Below are positions 8,283 to 40,307 of a stretch of DNA of 64,000 bases, piece by piece. The position numbers were made by a program, and so were the translations under genes. Positions within the stretch are counted from its first letter, which is position 1. Each line of letters starts with the position of its first letter. The notes under the pieces are model-generated. The model saw only the letters and a program-made list of their open reading frames with translations. It was not told the DNA's origin and made no database searches. The stretch lies in NCBI GenBank assembly GCA_018268355.1, contig JAFDWR010000003.1, positions 248,001 to 312,000 of the forward strand, written 5' to 3'. The DNA comes from Armatimonadota bacterium (GTDB lineage: Bacteria; Armatimonadota; Fimbriimonadia; Fimbriimonadales; Fimbriimonadaceae).

Positions 8283-8320
8283 GAGGCGGCTCTGCAGCAA
8301 TGCAGAGCCGCCTCTTGCTT
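8283..8320 (+). terminator. Rho-independent terminator after the PEP-CTERM gene
   Basis: A perfect 14-bp GC-rich stem (8283-8296 with 8301-8314), a GCAA tetraloop and a TTGCTTTG tail. It lies 25 bases after the stop codon and isolates gyrB. Confidence 0.85.
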
Positions 8321-17723: not shown

Positions 17724-18245
17724 CTAGGATTCTTCCGGCTTGATCAAGTTGCTGAGCTGATCAAACGGATTGTTCGCTCCCGGCTTGGCGGAAGGGTTGA
17801 GATCGCGCGGGCAGGGCAGTTCCCACCCGAACTCGCAGAGCGGTTGCATAGGAAGTTCGAGGAGCAGGGCCTGACGGACAAACGGCTCGACCATGAGCTG
17901 GTTGCCGTCAAAAAGCTCATACGGCTCATCGGAAACCACGCGGGCGAAATCGGTCTGGCTGAGGCTGCTCGGCACGCCTTCGACTTGGAATTGCTCGTCG
18001 ATGGAAAATTCGACATCGACTTCAAGCGGTGAGGTGCACCGAGCGCACTCAACAACCGCCCTCGTCTTGAACTCACCCTTGATCATCAAAATGTTGCCGG
18101 TGGAGACGCACTCAAGGAAACCTTCGAGCGGTTTGACCAGGTCGAGGTCCTCCTCTTCGGGCAATTCGGTCTGAATATCGACCGCCAGCTCGCGTCCAGG
18201 ATGTTGCAATATGTCGTTCAGATCAAGTAGGTCATCCCGTTTCAC
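17724..18245 (-). CDS. yceD: YceD/DUF177 family protein
   Basis: 173 residues with the DUF177 pattern: a start like LLDLNDILQHPG, a central VVECARCTSPLEV with paired Cys, and a late LELPMQPLC. The family is linked to 23S rRNA or L32 accumulation in other bacteria. GTG at 18245 is chosen because it places the conserved N-terminus correctly and a TACACT box (18256-18261) ends 10 bases before it. It is the first gene of the yceD-plsX-fabH-DUF488 group. Confidence 0.85.
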   Translation of the reverse strand: MKRDDLLDLNDILQHPGRELAVDIQTELPEEEDLDLVKPLEGFLECVSTGNILMIKGEFKTRAVVECARCTSPLEVDVEFSIDEQFQVEGVPSSLSQTDFARVVSDEPYELFDGNQLMVEPFVRQALLLELPMQPLCEFGWELPCPRDLNPSAKPGANNPFDQLSNLIKPEES

Positions 18246-18362
18246 AGCGCGCGGGAGTGTACCCCCGAGCGAATTTCTCCCTTGAGCGTGATAGAATCTT
18301 GCGAATCGTAGAAACAAATCGCTTCCTTCAATCCGTCACACGGTTTGGCGACGCGATGTTGC

Positions 18363-18368
18363 TATACT
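18363..18368 (+). promoter_or_regulatory. Candidate -10 box (TATACT) for the lipoprotein/proteasome operon
   Basis: TATACT lies 47 bases before the TTG start at 18416 and upstream of an AGGAG ribosome site at about 18402-18406. I cannot find a convincing -35 element at 17 bases. If real, this promoter could drive the lipoprotein and, through the 4-base gap, dop-pup-prcB. Confidence 0.4.
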
Positions 18369-18415
18369 TGCACGCATTCATTGGCCGCAAGGCGAATAAT
18401 TAGGAGAATCCGGTT

Positions 18416-19744
18416 TTGAAGAATTGGGCATGGGCACTCGCTCTTGGAACGTTGATTGCTGTTGGCTGCGGTGGCGGCGGCAGTGGCAACGGCAATGGTA
18501 ACGGTAACGGCAACGGAAACGGGAATGGCAACGGTGGAAACGCCGGCAACCCGTACCCGACCGTGAATCTTTCCTCGACTCCTCGAGCGCAATTCACAGT
18601 TTTGACGGGCGCAGGTCGCGCCATTGGTGATCCGATCACCGCGGTTTTCAATCGCGTCTACCTGCGGGACCCGAACACGGGCGACCTGTATTCGACGATT
18701 CTGAACCCGGCTCGAACGGTTCGACTCGACAACTACACGACTCAGGCCATCCCGCTCCAGCTGGATCCTGCCGTCGTTGGCAACGGTCTGACCTTCACCG
18801 AAGTTCCGATTGAAATCCAGTCGCTCACCGTTCAGTCGCAGACTGGAACGCTGAACTTCTCGAACCCCGGCAACGCCTGGGTCACCGATTCCATCAACCC
18901 GGCCGAGATTCGCGTTCTCCCCGGACGAACCACCAACATCACCCTCAAGCTGAACAACACGATGTTCCAAGAGGATGACGGCGTGGGCGGCAACGGTACC
19001 TACGCTTGGATTCCGCAGTCGTTCTACGATGCCAACATCCCCGTCGCGGGAACCTTCCAGGGTGAGTTCGCCGACTACGTGATGTTCGACATCTCGGGCG
19101 TCGCGACCCGACCGCTTCTCCCGCAGGCCGGCACCCCCGCCTCGCGACTCTACGTGAGCGGTGATCGCATCGCACTCAGCACGGCTTCGCCCGGCGAATT
19201 CAGCGTCCTTAACGACGACACCGGCACCGTCGGCCTCGAGTACATCGCTGGCACCTGGACGAACCCGCAAGGATCGACGCCTGGTCAGTATCGACTCAAC
19301 CAGCCCGACCCCTCGCAGCCGATCCCGAACCCGACGATCACGATCGACACCATTGTCGGTACGTGGACGCCTCGAACGACGGTCCTCACGAGCGGAACCT
19401 CGAACTTTGAGTTCGTGACCTTCCCGCAGTCGTCGGACAGCAACGTTCAGGCTTGCGTCGCCTACGTTCGAAATGGCACGTCGATCACGAACATGTACGT
19501 CGGTGAGGTCAACCTCCTGAACGGCACCCTCGTGATCATCCCGGTCGGCGACCTCAACCCGGCGACCACGGCAAACGGCATCGTGGGTACGGTTTCGAAC
19601 TTCGTGGACTCGACGGGCACGACGGTGAGCAACCCGAACACCCAGTCCGCCTACGCTTCGATCCGACGAGGCTCGTTCACCCTTTCGGGAACGCTGCCGA
19701 CCGGATTCAGCAGCAGCGGCACCTTCGTCGTCTTCCGAAAGTAG
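18416..19744 (+). CDS. Lipoprotein with Gly-Asn repeat linker, upstream of dop
   Basis: 442 residues. The N-terminus MKNWAWALALGTLIAVGC is a lipoprotein signal with Cys at 18, followed by GGGGS and eight consecutive Gly-Asn pairs. The rest is beta-rich and Thr/Ser/Asn-rich without catalytic motifs, probably a surface-exposed domain. It starts with TTG after AGGAG. Only 4 bases separate its stop from the dop ATG, so it may share a transcript with the proteasome genes. A functional link is not evident. I do not recognise the family. Confidence 0.75.
   Translation: MKNWAWALALGTLIAVGCGGGGSGNGNGNGNGNGNGNGNGGNAGNPYPTVNLSSTPRAQFTVLTGAGRAIGDPITAVFNRVYLRDPNTGDLYSTILNPARTVRLDNYTTQAIPLQLDPAVVGNGLTFTEVPIEIQSLTVQSQTGTLNFSNPGNAWVTDSINPAEIRVLPGRTTNITLKLNNTMFQEDDGVGGNGTYAWIPQSFYDANIPVAGTFQGEFADYVMFDISGVATRPLLPQAGTPASRLYVSGDRIALSTASPGEFSVLNDDTGTVGLEYIAGTWTNPQGSTPGQYRLNQPDPSQPIPNPTITIDTIVGTWTPRTTVLTSGTSNFEFVTFPQSSDSNVQACVAYVRNGTSITNMYVGEVNLLNGTLVIIPVGDLNPATTANGIVGTVSNFVDSTGTTVSNPNTQSAYASIRRGSFTLSGTLPTGFSSSGTFVVFRK
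18485..18532 (+). repeat. (GGN AAY)8 hexanucleotide coding repeat
   Basis: Eight tandem 6-base units encode Gly-Asn pairs after the lipobox. Third positions vary among the units, so selection is on the protein linker, and recent slippage is unlikely. Confidence 0.85.
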
Positions 19745-19748
19745 CCTT

Positions 19749-21197
19749 ATGGACCGCGTTCTTTGCGGGATCGAGACCGAATACGGGATCGCCCTCGAAG
19801 GACGCGGAGCTTCCACCCAAATCGAGGATTCTAAGCACTTCGTCCGGAGCTATCCGGGCGAAGTGCTTTCTCTTTGGGATTACCGTCATGAGTCGCCCCG
19901 GAACGATCTGCGCGGCTTTCGGCTCGACCAACTCGCCTTTGATCCCGTCGATGCCAAGTTCGACGCGGGCGAGGTGCGGGGCCTGGATAGCGAAACCCGA
20001 AGCGACCGCATCCTGACCAATGGCGCACGGTTCTACAACGACCACGGCCACCCCGAATACTCAACCCCGGAGGCATGGTGCGCAGCGGGTCTCACCCGCG
20101 AGGACGCTTTGGGTGAACAGATCCTGCTCGAGACCGCCCGTGCCTACGCCGAGTCAACCGGTCTTCGAACCCAGGTCTACAAGAACAACACGGACTTCCA
20201 CGGCGCGAGCTACGGCACCCACGAGAGCTACCTTTGCCCGCGCGAGCTCGGCTTTGATCGACTCTTCGCCGCTGTGACCCCGATTCTCGTCGCGAGGATC
20301 GCCTACACCGGCGCGGGAAAGGCAGGCGCCGAGGAAGGGGCGGCGATTCCCTTCCAAACCAGCCAGCGGGCCGATTTCTTCGTCGAAGCGGCCAATGCGG
20401 AGACCCTTTACCGACGCCCCGTCTTCAACACCCGCGACGAGCCGCATGCCGACCCCGCCCATTGGATTCGCCTCCACGTCATCGCGGGCGACGCAAACAT
20501 GAACCCCTGGTCGACCTGGCTGAAGGTCAGCCTCGTCCAAATCGCGATCCAGCTCGAAAAGATCGGCCGGATGCCTCGCTATGCGATCAAGGACCCGGTC
20601 CGTGCCGCCAAGCAGGTCAGCCGCTCGCTGGAGTCCGATGCCCGAATTGAGCTCGACGGCGGACGCTGGACGACGGCGGATGCCATCTTGGACTCGACCC
20701 TCGGAGCGGCCAGCCAATTCCTCGGCGGCGAGTTCGCCGACGTCATCGAGTTTTGGAGCGACCTCCGGGGCGACCTCCGCGCCGACTGGACCCGCGCCAT
20801 CGACCGCGTTGACTGGTGCGCCAAGCGGTACGTGATTGAGTCCGCCGAACCCGAGTCGATCCCCGCTGCCCAAGCCATCGACCTCGAGTACTGCAACATC
20901 GACCCCGAGGAAGGCCTTTACCACGCCCTCGAACAGATGGGCGAGATCCGGCCCTTCACCCCCGAACCCGTCTCTGGCCTCACCCGCGCCGCCCTCCGGG
21001 GCTATGCCGCCAAGCACTTCCCCAGCCACCTCGTCGCCGCCTGCTGGCGATCGCTTACCTTTCGGCGCGAGCAAGGGACCCTGGAGATCGAATTGCGCCC
21101 CGACGTCGAAGTTCCTCCGTCCATCTTTGAGATTCTCGACGTAGAATCCTTTATCGAGACCCTTCTGGAACTCAACTCATGGAACCCGACCGACTAA
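19749..21197 (+). CDS. dop: Pup deamidase/depupylase-like protein (Dop type)
   Basis: A 482-residue member of the Dop/PafA carboxylate-amine ligase fold, which processes or ligates the small protein modifier. The N-terminus has GIETEYG (Glu 9 and 11, Mg/ATP site), and the catalytic Asp lies in NGARFYNDHGHPEYSTPE (about D98). The segment WDYRHESPRNDLRGF followed by an acidic stretch corresponds to the Dop loop, which PafA lacks, so this is the deamidase/deconjugase rather than the ligase. KNNTDFHGASYGTHESYL and NTRDEPHAD are further family marks. The last 19 bases overlap the modifier gene. No PafA-like ligase is in the window. Confidence 0.92.
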   Translation: MDRVLCGIETEYGIALEGRGASTQIEDSKHFVRSYPGEVLSLWDYRHESPRNDLRGFRLDQLAFDPVDAKFDAGEVRGLDSETRSDRILTNGARFYNDHGHPEYSTPEAWCAAGLTREDALGEQILLETARAYAESTGLRTQVYKNNTDFHGASYGTHESYLCPRELGFDRLFAAVTPILVARIAYTGAGKAGAEEGAAIPFQTSQRADFFVEAANAETLYRRPVFNTRDEPHADPAHWIRLHVIAGDANMNPWSTWLKVSLVQIAIQLEKIGRMPRYAIKDPVRAAKQVSRSLESDARIELDGGRWTTADAILDSTLGAASQFLGGEFADVIEFWSDLRGDLRADWTRAIDRVDWCAKRYVIESAEPESIPAAQAIDLEYCNIDPEEGLYHALEQMGEIRPFTPEPVSGLTRAALRGYAAKHFPSHLVAACWRSLTFRREQGTLEIELRPDVEVPPSIFEILDVESFIETLLELNSWNPTD

Positions 21198-21358
21198 ATC
21201 GACCGATCTCACGCCCCGGCGAGAGAAAGCTTGGCGACGAATCTGGACCCAGCGGTCCCGAGGTCAACAAACCCAAGTCAGACAACGAACTGATGCGACG
21301 GCTTAAGAAGGTTGATCCTGACCGAGCCAAGAACTATCGCCAGCGGTCGGGCCAATGA
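21179..21358 (+). CDS. Pup/UBact-type small protein modifier
   Basis: A 59-residue, highly charged and probably disordered protein beginning MEPDRLNRP and ending AKNYRQRSGQ. The terminal SGQ matches the R(T/S)G(E/Q) end described for UBact in Gram-negative lineages and parallels the GGQ of actinobacterial Pup. A C-terminal Gln must be deamidated to Glu before ligation, which is the job of Dop. The gene overlaps dop by 19 bases at its start and prcB by ATGA (21355-21358), so all three are translationally coupled. The middle section LMRRLKKVDPDRAKN is the probable Dop/ATPase-binding helix. The call rests on the C-terminus, composition and gene order. Confidence 0.9.
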   Translation: MEPDRLNRPISRPGERKLGDESGPSGPEVNKPKSDNELMRRLKKVDPDRAKNYRQRSGQ

Positions 21359-22107
21359 ACGTAGCCCCTCCCAAGACCTTCGCCGAGCTGGTGAGCTTCA
21401 ACCTGCCCGCAAGCACGCCCGAAGAGACTCACGGCACCACCGTCCTCGCGGTTCGATATAAGGAAGGCGTTCTCACCCTCGCCGACCGCCGCGCGACCGC
21501 CGGAAACCTGATCATGTATGACCAGGCGGAGAAGGTCATGCCGCTTGATGACAGCACGGTGATCGCAATCAGCGGCGCCTTTGCCCGGTCCATCGAGGTC
21601 TGCCGGTTCCTGAAGCACTCGTTCAAGTACTACCGGCGCATCTCCCTCACCGAGCTCAGCGTCGAAGGCAAGCTCGCCGAGATCAGCCGAGCCCTCTCCC
21701 AAAACGCAGCGGGCGCGATGCAAGGCGTGGGCGTTTTCATCCCCATCGCGGGACTGTATGACAAGAAGAAGGACCACTTTGGCGTCTACTTCTTCGACAT
21801 CGCCGGTGCGCGCTTCCAGAGCGGCGGCTTTGCGGCGGCGGGTTCAGGCTCCGAGCGCATCCGCGGCATCTTCGACTACTTGGTCCGCGACAAAGGCCCG
21901 TTTGAAGAGCGGCCCCTCAAGGAAGTGCTTGAAGACGCCCTGACGATGCTCGACATTGCCGCCGAGCTCGACTCGGCGACCGGGGGCTTCGAACGATTTT
22001 TGCCGATCGCGAACGTGCTCGACCGAGATGGCACCCGGCCGCTCGACCCCAAGTTGCTCTCGACGACCGCAGATAAGGTGCTTAAGGCGTCGGTGCGGCG
22101 ACCTTAA
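21355..22107 (+). CDS. prcB: 20S proteasome beta subunit
   Basis: A 250-residue N-terminal-nucleophile hydrolase forming the catalytic rings of the bacterial proteasome. A 27-residue propeptide ends HG, and T28 would be the mature Thr1. D44 and K60 then fall exactly at mature positions 17 and 33, completing the catalytic set, so it should be active after autocleavage. It starts at the ATGA overlap with the modifier gene. The alpha subunit (prcA) that normally follows is not here; the next gene is an unrelated BON protein converging from the other strand with a 26-base overlap. Confidence 0.93.
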   Translation: MNVAPPKTFAELVSFNLPASTPEETHGTTVLAVRYKEGVLTLADRRATAGNLIMYDQAEKVMPLDDSTVIAISGAFARSIEVCRFLKHSFKYYRRISLTELSVEGKLAEISRALSQNAAGAMQGVGVFIPIAGLYDKKKDHFGVYFFDIAGARFQSGGFAAAGSGSERIRGIFDYLVRDKGPFEERPLKEVLEDALTMLDIAAELDSATGGFERFLPIANVLDRDGTRPLDPKLLSTTADKVLKASVRRP

Positions 22108-22441
22108 TCTCGTCGACGACCTTCTCCACGCCTTCCACGTTATTCGCAAGGTCAAGGATCAGCTTCTTTTGAGCGGCATCCTTGGCCGTTCCCTTGATCG
22201 TCACCACCGAACCCGCTGAGGAGACTTCCAAGTCGCCTCCGCTGATGCCCTTGCGCCAGCTGAGGACGGCCTTCACCTTCCCCGCAACCGAGAAGTTGCC
22301 GGCGGCTTCCTTGGTGCGGGTCCACATCGTGGTAGCCGACTTCTCCAGTTCCGAAGCTTCCTTCTTGTTGATTCCCATTCGGCCGGCGATGATCATGCCG
22401 CCGACACCCAGGATGGCGAGGAGAGCTGCCCACTTCAACAT
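22082..22441 (-). CDS. Membrane-anchored BON-domain protein
   Basis: 119 residues. An N-terminal hydrophobic anchor (MLKWAALLAILGVGGMIIAG) precedes a single BON domain of about 70 residues (KVKAVLSW...SAGSVVTIKGTAKDAAQKKLILDLANNVEGVEKVVDEI). BON domains bind phospholipid or peptidoglycan-related surfaces in periplasmic proteins such as OsmY. The ATG at 22441 is chosen because it starts the hydrophobic anchor. The 3' end overlaps prcB by 26 bases in convergent orientation. Confidence 0.8.
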   Translation of the reverse strand: MLKWAALLAILGVGGMIIAGRMGINKKEASELEKSATTMWTRTKEAAGNFSVAGKVKAVLSWRKGISGGDLEVSSAGSVVTIKGTAKDAAQKKLILDLANNVEGVEKVVDEIKVAAPTP

Positions 22442-22456
22442 GGACCTAGGATACAG

Positions 22457-22483
22457 CAAAAGGTCCCACGGACCGTGGGACCT
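22457..22483 (-). terminator. Rho-independent terminator after flagellin
   Basis: A near-perfect palindrome (AGGTCCCACG and its complement around 3 bases) followed on the minus strand by TTTT. It lies 25 bases beyond the flagellin stop. Confidence 0.8.
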
Positions 22484-22508
22484 CTGTGCCTCATGGAGTG
22501 AGGAGAAC

Positions 22509-23966
22509 TTACTGCCGCAGAAGCTGGAGGACTTGCTGCGGAAGCTGGTTCGCCTGGGCAAGAACGGACATGCCACTCTGCTGAAGGATCTGCATTCGCG
22601 TGTAGGAGGTGATTTCCTCGGCCATGTCCGCGTCTCGGATCGAGCTTTCGGTGGCGGTGAGGTTCTCCTTGGCGATGTCGAGCGATCGCGAGGTTGACTC
22701 GAGGAAGTTCTTTTGGAACGAGCCGAGTTCGCCGCGCATCCGGGCCAGCTGGGTGATGGCGTCGTCGATGATCTTCATCGCGTTCTGCGCACCCGTTTGG
22801 GTCGTGACGTCGAGCGTCTCGATCGAGTCGCCCGGCACCGAGTTCACACCCAGCCGGTTGGCATAGACCGTCGGCAGGCCGAAGCTCACACTCTGGTCGC
22901 TGAAGGCGCCGATCTGGAATCGGACTTGGCCTTCGGTAATCATGCCGATCTGGGTCGCTGCCGCAACGTTGTTGCCGTTCTCGGTCAGCGTGAAGCTATT
23001 GCCGTAAGTATCCGTCAGCTTCAGACCCGACTCGTTCGGACCTCGGCCACCCGTGAAGAGGGCGGTTCGGATCGGCGGATTGCCATTGGTCGTCGCCTGG
23101 ACGGAATAGACCGCGTCGGCACCCGTGCTCTGCGCCGAAGGCGTCGAGTTGAGAAGACCGGTCGCGTCGAAGAAGTCGATCTTGTGCTGAGCACCGTAGG
23201 TCGTCTGCGAGAGCTGGATGCTCACGTTCGGACCGGCGGCAACGATGTCAGCGCTGACGCCCGTGGTGTTCGAGGCCGCGTTGATCTTGTTGACAATGCT
23301 CTGCAGCGTATCGCTCGACGAGGTCGAGAACGAGTAACCGTTGACCACGAACGAACCGTTCGCACCCACCACCGAGTTCGCAGTGGCGAAGGTTCGGTCA
23401 AGGGTGACCTGGGCTCGGGTCGCCGCACTCACACGAGTAACGGTCATCGGACCGCTGGCGATTGACTCGCCGGCAAAGGTGCCACCCATGTAGATGCTGT
23501 TGACGTTGGCCGAACTGGTCACGTTGGCGAGAACGCCTGCCGTGCCGTCGAGAAGCTTCTTCGTACCAAACTGGGTCTGCTCAGCAATTCGGTTGATCGA
23601 GGCGATGCTCGAGCGGATCTGCGACTGGTTCGCTTGCAGCGTGTTGCTGTCGACGACGGCCGTGTTCGCGCTGTTCACCGCAAGGGCTCGCATGTCGTTG
23701 AGCAGTCGCTGCACTTCGTTCAGTGCTCCTTCGGCCGTCTTCGACATATTGATCGCGTCTTGCGAGTTTCGCATCGCTTGGTTGATGCCAGCAATTTGCG
23801 CTCGCATCCCTTCGCTGATGATCAATCCCGCCGGATCGTCGGCCGCCGTATTGATCCGCATGCCCGAACTTAGTCGAGAGATGCTCTGTTGGTATCCCGT
23901 AGCGTTCGTCTGCAGGTTTCGCAGCGCGGTCAGTGCGGGGATGTTGGTGTTGATCCTTAGGCTCAC
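22509..23966 (-). CDS. fliC: Flagellin
   Basis: The flagellar filament protein, 485 residues. The conserved N-terminal D0/D1 helices (SLRINTNIPALTALRNL to about residue 140) and C-terminal D1/D0 helices (from about residue 390, ending QANQLPQQVLQLLRQ) surround a variable Thr/Ser/Asn-rich centre. The D1 stretch reads LNDMRALAV where TLR5-active flagellins have LQRVRELAV, so two of the contact positions are changed. It starts with GTG after GGAG. No other flagellar genes are in the window. A sigma-28-like promoter lies upstream. Confidence 0.96.
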   Translation of the reverse strand: MSLRINTNIPALTALRNLQTNATGYQQSISRLSSGMRINTAADDPAGLIISEGMRAQIAGINQAMRNSQDAINMSKTAEGALNEVQRLLNDMRALAVNSANTAVVDSNTLQANQSQIRSSIASINRIAEQTQFGTKKLLDGTAGVLANVTSSANVNSIYMGGTFAGESIASGPMTVTRVSAATRAQVTLDRTFATANSVVGANGSFVVNGYSFSTSSSDTLQSIVNKINAASNTTGVSADIVAAGPNVSIQLSQTTYGAQHKIDFFDATGLLNSTPSAQSTGADAVYSVQATTNGNPPIRTALFTGGRGPNESGLKLTDTYGNSFTLTENGNNVAAATQIGMITEGQVRFQIGAFSDQSVSFGLPTVYANRLGVNSVPGDSIETLDVTTQTGAQNAMKIIDDAITQLARMRGELGSFQKNFLESTSRSLDIAKENLTATESSIRDADMAEEITSYTRMQILQQSGMSVLAQANQLPQQVLQLLRQ

Positions 23967-40257: not shown

Positions 40258-40270
40258 GGGTAAAAGCTGA

Positions 40271-40307
40271 GCGGGGCGAGGATAACCATCCTCGCCCCGC
40301 TTCTGTT
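40271..40307. terminator. Bidirectional terminator between two PEP-CTERM genes
   Basis: A 13-bp GC-rich perfect stem (40271-40283 with 40288-40300) with loop AACC, a T-rich tail on the plus strand and a shorter one on the minus strand. It serves both converging genes. Confidence 0.8.

Follow-up and report, generated by a model that had tools for sequence, protein, structure and literature searches.

The experimental studies of such systems that were consulted here concern Actinobacteria, and in the Pup-proteasome system of those bacteria the C-terminal Gln of the modifier is deamidated by Dop (PMC12288473). The UBact conjugation-proteasome system of Gram-negative bacteria is also already known (Lehmann et al., 2017, BBRC 483:946, as cited in PMC12751074), and G[EQ]-ended, Pup-like proteins from outside the Actinobacteria were listed as Pup in 2008 (PMC2588565). 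The locus described here lies in a window of 64,000 nucleotides, the whole stretch of DNA analyzed, taken from contig 3 of a genome of 2.70 Mb in 7 contigs. It shares its chemistry and enzyme families with the actinobacterial system, and it has in common with the UBact system the modifier family, the R-S-G-[E/Q] end, the dop/pafA paralogs, PrcA/PrcB and ARC. We consider it very probable that dop, UBact and prcB here form the core of a conjugation-proteasome system of the UBact (Pup-like) type in a Fimbriimonadia-group armatimonadete, and that its dop carries a selected, probably attenuating hairpin. The relatives used for comparison are Fimbriimonadaceae, Fimbriimonas, Chthonomonas or Armatimonadetes records, most of the genomes being MAGs, and start codons are assumed throughout.

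Three open reading frames on the forward strand make up the locus: dop (19749..21197; 482 aa; PF03136, 376.7 bits), predicted to encode a Dop-type deamidase/depupylase; the gene of a 59-aa putative UBact modifier with the C-terminus YRQRSGQ (21179..21358); and prcB (21355..22107; 250 aa; PF00227, 86.7 bits), for a 20S proteasome beta subunit with a 27-residue propeptide and Thr1 at 21436-21438. The frames, their ends and their overlaps are as an earlier, sequence-only reading of this DNA had claimed, with dop and the modifier gene sharing 19 nt and the modifier gene and prcB sharing ATGA (4 nt). The 59-codon modifier gene that it proposed has been borne out as well, both frame and tail being kept in 100/100 class members having the gene. 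The order dop-UBact-prcB was found in 92 of 100 class loci, in 13 of which prcA, or prcA plus pafA, comes next. In L105 and L107 (genomes G065 and G064), ~2.1 kb lie between dop and UBact, and the overlap of the two genes is broken there. Upstream, 4 nt separate the dop start from the end of a lipoprotein-like gene (18416..19744, forward strand), an ORF call of 442 aa with a TTG start, a lipobox-like IAVGC and a Gly/Asn-rich N-terminus; it had no Pfam match. Downstream, a BON-domain gene on the reverse strand (22082-22576) converges on prcB, the two tails overlapping by 26 nt, and if its long start is used it also overlaps a flagellin gene (22509-23966, reverse strand); because of these overlaps, the region is very tightly packed. 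A search of 18200-22400 for sigma-70 promoters found 0, compared to 0.8 expected.

The small gene was named by profile search. Its product matched NF033388 (NCBIfam; 65.7 bits, cut-off 35) and PF20513 (Pfam; 68 bits, cut-off 27.8), with E values of 3e-18 and 6e-19 over both curated models, while Pup models gave no match at E <= 0.1 in Pfam or NCBIfam and a search against the PDB returned nothing. Its RSGQ terminus fits R-[S/T]-G-[E/Q], and the gene adjoins a Dop/PafA-family gene and a proteasome subunit gene. The sequence-only reading had called for such a profile check of its UBact/Pup-type modifier, and the UBact models match well above their cut-offs with no match to Pup. It had also named what would speak against the modifier, namely the lack of a profile match or an unconserved end and frame in relatives; instead, RSG[QE] and the frame are retained in 100/100 class members. 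By both curated models the modifier is thus a UBact, and the matches lie far outside what chance would give. The remark that such small genes are easily missed by gene callers is dated, as NCBIfam and Pfam now carry models.

The dop product scored higher against the Dop model (TIGR03688, 322 bits) than against the PafA model (TIGR03686, 217 bits), and its PDB matches were likewise stronger for Dop (4b0r, 9.6e-69) than for PafA (4b0t, 3e-35). The score of 322 bits is below the TIGR03688 equivalog cut-off of 492 bits, a value that may reflect actinobacterial sequences. E11, R94, D98, H99 and NTRDE are conserved, with D98 aligned to the Dop Asp that precedes HxHPEYSTPE. A Dop-loop, a feature described in PMC8599861 and PMC9556782, had been reported from the letters alone and was recovered in alignment: the stretch W43-DYRHESPRNDLRGF could be aligned with this loop in A. 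cellulolyticus Dop, and the Trp that opens it is the one described there as W47 (PMC8599861). By alignment with 4b0r/5lrt, the loop covers approximately residues 43-83 (19875..19997, forward strand), starting WDYRHESPRNDLRGF, and W43, E48, P50, D53, R55 and G56 are each kept in 95/98 relatives. The sequence evidence thus supports a dop that encodes Dop rather than PafA.

The C-terminal residue of the modifier proved to be variable in a restricted way. In class UBact tails YRQRSG is invariant (100/100), and the last residue is Q in 67 and E in 33. On a Dop+PrcB tree the Q/E label changes 21 times, at least 17 of these changes being forced by well-supported branches, compared to 27.3 for shuffled labels. 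Outside the Q/E position, UBact is under strong purifying selection, with dN/dS about 0.05 (pairwise value 0.047 for the last 45 codons, 54 close pairs). L063 and L065 differ by 11 synonymous changes and 1 nonsynonymous change, the latter being the Q/E codon, and the same holds for L044 and L045 (18 synonymous, 1 nonsynonymous). Either Gln or Glu, and no other residue, is kept at the end of the modifier, and the residues before it stay fixed. When Dop and PrcB were searched for residues tracking Gln/Glu, 0/480 columns did so at p < 0.05 (independent pairs). Across the phylum, 98 genomes carry the exact tail motif with a final Q and about 69 carry it with a final E; reversed-pattern controls gave counts close to zero. 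The data are consistent with the claim that Gln ends need Dop, a PF03136 gene being present in all 98 phylum genomes with the Gln-ended motif. Nearly all E genomes, too, have Dop within or close to the UBact locus; in one of them (G004, 86% complete) a PafA-like gene only was found. Since genomes with a Glu end keep Dop just as those with a Gln end do, tag removal, not deamidation, is the likelier selected role of Dop. Its retention with Glu ends agrees with the statement that depupylation is probably Dop's primary function when the modifier is synthesized with a Glu end (PMC12288473). The repeated switches, at least 17 within one class, amount to a natural experiment on the role of Dop.

PrcB contains Thr1 (residue 28, after HG), Asp17 and Lys33, as had been claimed, and all three are invariant in 94/94 relatives; the GSGS and DSATGG motifs are also kept. 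Its score against TIGR03690 was 120.6 bits, under the cut-off of 191.9, and its best PDB match was a Rhodococcus beta subunit. The locus is without the whole system, prcA, pafA and ARC being on other contigs and the components spread over four. A second PF03136 protein, PafA-like, is encoded on contig 2 (L001); it scores slightly higher against PafA models (292 bits) than against Dop models (273 bits), and its best PDB match is Dop. Contig 6 (L005:1423-3096) encodes an ARC/Mpa-like proteasomal ATPase (TIGR03689, pup_AAA, 449 bits, cut-off 505; best PDB match Mpa, 1e-100), and contig 4 (L004) a divergent PrcA (TIGR03691, 60 bits, 2e-16, cut-off 139; PDB 1q5q_A, 6e-10). Every one of Dop, PafA, PrcB, PrcA and ARC is below its NCBIfam equivalog cut-off. 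Because PafA-like, ARC/Mpa-like and PrcA proteins are encoded elsewhere in the genome, the system is complete by gene content. To this extent the "working modifier-proteasome system" of the sequence-only reading stands; that the system works is presumed from its genes. By homology, Dop would convert the terminal Gln of UBact into Glu by deamidation and, at a later stage, strip UBact from substrates, PafA would link the gamma-carboxylate of UBact to substrate lysines, and ARC would unfold the tagged proteins into the PrcA/PrcB barrel. The 19-nt and 4-nt overlaps could, through translational coupling, keep Dop, UBact and PrcB together.

The ARC of this genome ends in FIRRNVL and is without the penultimate Tyr of the GQYL end that M. 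tuberculosis Mpa requires (PMC8142254). A GQYL end was found in none of the 30 class ARC tails or the sister-class tails read (L219-L277 among the loci). Nearly all of the class tails finish in a hydrophobic pair (e.g., RKNVI, RKAIV); in the sister class, the last two residues are II, IL or VI in almost every complete tail (e.g., RRNII). Since the Armatimonadota ARC is without the GQYL/HbYX tyrosine, gate opening must presumably differ in detail.

UBact was found in 100 of 113 class genomes (84/88 good ones), PF03136 in 109, ARC in 104, and proteasome-fold proteins in 108, a count that takes in HslV-like ones. Two 1.5-Mb, 97%-complete genomes of genus g24 in the same family (G067 and G068) are without UBact, Dop/PafA, proteasome subunits and ARC, which is a case of concerted loss with genome reduction. 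In the sister class, ARC, Dop, UBact and PafA occur within a few kb of each other (e.g., at 2610960, 2612406, 2614149 and 2615812, respectively, in G157 C1). Since the sister-class parts sit so close together, a longer ancestral operon is inferred, of which the compact dop-UBact-prcB locus is probably a remnant. Elsewhere in the phylum, G211, G213, G222 and G269 have weaker-scoring PF03136 homologs and are without the UBact tail motif, possibly reflecting other uses of the ligase fold. A Fimbriimonadaceae-type UBact operon filed under "Methanoregulaceae archaeon isolate SJ84" (L171, JADZEW010000030.1) is apparently on the same contig as G064:C30 and is probably from a mislabelled MAG.

Two other interpretations of the locus deserve consideration. 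The small gene might be a true Pup and not UBact, since its neighborhood and G[EQ] end are of the same kind as Pup's and PMC2588565 called such non-actinobacterial proteins Pup; however, both profile libraries give UBact models only, and we regard this as extremely improbable. The naming is partly a matter of convention. Alternatively, the locus might be a vestigial or repurposed Pup-like system that has lost protein degradation. The scatter of its parts over four contigs, an ARC without the gate-opening GQYL motif (PMC8142254) and the divergence of PrcA, at less than half the TIGR03691 cut-off, could all be read in this way. The strong purifying selection on UBact, the invariance of PrcB's catalytic residues and near-invariance of Dop's, and the presence or concerted loss of all parts argue against it, and we consider loss of the degradative function very unlikely.

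A terminator scan flagged 19833-19868, inside dop, as AAGCACTTCGTCCGG-AGCTAT-CCGGGCGAAGTGCTT. This RNA hairpin lies on the forward strand within dop codons 29-40 and has 16 pairs (15 Watson-Crick, 1 G.U) and a 4-nt loop; with its flanks, it gave a folding energy of -34.6 kcal/mol (z -6.3). The main hairpin occurs in 37 of 73 dops of the window's own family and not outside that family. When this site was compared in 90 relatives that have the loop Trp, the number of inner Watson-Crick pairs proved bimodal, 37 having at least 9/14 and most others 2-7. When 1.15 Mb of class loci were scanned for strong hairpins (at least 12 pairs, G.U allowed), 42 of 124 fell in one 60-nt dop bin, the next bins (7 and 6) being the end of prcB. 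A strict Watson-Crick scan gave only 6 dop-site hairpins and missed the signal. With a covariance model (R1), the dop site was the only strong match in the window and in the 2.7-Mb genome, and Rfam (4227 models) searched against 18300-22400 gave no match up to E = 1. The window holds two more perfect 14-bp hairpins (8283-8314 and 40270-40301), and simulated sequence of the same dinucleotide make-up held none. A dispersed palindromic element was considered and rejected, given the single match in the genome and a mostly constant spacing from the dop start to the loop Trp (42 codons in 26/29), due to which nothing seems to have been inserted at the site.

The pairing exceeds what the protein requires. 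Codon resampling with the protein kept predicted 7.1/14 pairs compared to 11.9 observed, and the observed pairing was unreached by any resample in 24 of the 37 hairpin-bearing dops. A resampling z > 3 was obtained for 47% of dops at the hairpin window and for 0-8% in 20 other dop windows. Departures from Watson-Crick pairing in the stem comprised 69 G.U and 2 A.C, compared to 97 and 36 under resampling; since G.U is tolerated and A.C nearly absent, this points to selection on the sense RNA. Two-sided changes were seen in 12 of 17 pairs (77 cells), and the covariation score was 0.42, compared to <= 0.13 when partners were slid and 0.24 when they were shuffled, with 0/500 shuffles reaching the observed value; pair counts are inflated by sequence kinship. 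Columns 9/34 pair the third position of an Ala codon, which may be A, G or C, with the first position of a Cys/Arg/Gly codon, and the two vary together (AU 14, CG 10, GC 7); RNA pairing and protein sequence are therefore tied. On a tree built on Dop itself, the main hairpin changes 11 times, at least 6 of them forced, compared to 28.6 for shuffled labels. Seven dops without the main stem (L126, L128, L131, L134, L135, L069 and L100) have a different hairpin, of other sequence and register, at the same site (p <= 0.013 each by resampling), which suggests replacement of the structure and not just its loss. There is good support for the hairpin being an RNA structure that is under selection and carried by codon choice.

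The hairpin lies ~85 nt past the upstream lipoprotein-like gene, whose stop codon, at the dop start, is ~125 nt before the loop Trp codon. A homolog of that gene directly precedes dop in 69 of 73 family dops, including 37/37 with the hairpin, and in 0 outside the family. A terminator-like, T-rich stretch at and after the stem end (19866..19875, forward strand) is enriched in T over synonymous resampling: hairpin-bearing dops have 177 T after the hairpin compared to 122 expected (z 12.8), and dops without the main hairpin also show enrichment (z 4.2). The window's own stem is followed by TCTCTTT. The element thus has the form of an intrinsic terminator, a G+C-rich stem-loop and then a T-tract, and about half of the ten best off-site R1 matches, when read, were ordinary hairpin plus T-run terminators (L298-L301, L307). 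The tract is short, however, with 2-6 T in 8 nt across relatives, and weaker than in the clade's true terminators.

Most simply, the upstream lipoprotein gene would have its terminator within the coding sequence of the gene that follows. We lean modestly toward the hairpin being an intrinsic terminator/attenuator, with translation-gated read-through as the favored mechanism. It would end transcripts of the upstream gene and limit read-through into dop-UBact-prcB unless dop is being translated, ribosomes on dop melting the hairpin; since dop starts upstream of the hairpin, dop-UBact-prcB transcripts from any upstream promoter must pass it. Counting against this reading, half of the family's dops are without the main hairpin. 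In its fullest form, in which dop codons 29-40 are dual-coding for protein and a terminating or attenuating hairpin, dop translation gates the supply of Dop, UBact and PrcB, and pairing decides some residues (Cys/Arg/Gly), we judge the idea an even call.

The main rival holds that the element acts post-transcriptionally, as a site for processing by RNase III/RNase E or for control of stability, reducing dop mRNA relative to UBact-prcB, or as a ribosome pause just before the Dop-loop codons. A very stable stem of 14-17 pairs, the U-rich single strand after it and the G.U tolerance that marks RNA-level selection on the sense strand would all suit such a role. However, 14-17 pairs are short for RNase III, and both the co-occurrence with a specific upstream gene ending ~85 nt earlier and the likeness to the clade's terminators fit termination better; a post-transcriptional role is conceivable but rather doubtful. 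The palindrome could otherwise be driven by the protein, as LVR-xx-P(G/D)E is self-complementary, or arise by quasipalindrome correction in a dispensable segment. The peptide does ease pairing, CTC GTC CGG and CCG GAC GAG being reverse complements, and resampled codons still form half of the inner pairs. But the observed pairing goes well beyond this in most hairpin-bearing dops, 2 A.C against 69 G.U is not predicted by a DNA-level process, the Ala third base covaries with the Cys/Arg/Gly first base, and other hairpins, in different registers, have arisen there. We consider such an origin improbable, and its protein-driven form was rejected on codon resampling and the G.U/A.C asymmetry, which largely refute it.

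Since the UBact system was known already, the window's locus is a further instance of it, and the many E/Q end swaps are what our comparison adds. The hairpin in dop appears not to have been pointed out before: no description of it turned up for the UBact system or in searches of the literature on attenuation and internal termination, a weak indication that it is new. As a covarying hairpin within coding sequence, it offers a specific, cheap and testable hypothesis for operon regulation and illustrates codon use in the service of RNA structure throughout a family. In gene layout, only dop-UBact-prcB are linked in this family, whereas in the sister class and related families more parts are linked (composite ARC-dop-UBact-prcB-prcA-pafA). 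Compared with the actinobacterial Pup-proteasome system, the modifier family differs, the ARC tail is without GQYL and the genes are arranged differently. The closest parallels to the hairpin are cases of ORF-internal termination and attenuation (PMC7815308, E. coli; PMC4191407, ribosome-mediated), in which a terminator-like hairpin likewise lies inside or at the start of a frame and can respond to translation. Unlike those cases, the structure described here is without an Rfam family match, occupies codons 29-40 of a conserved enzyme, is kept across a bacterial family, and has amino acids that vary in step with its base pairing.
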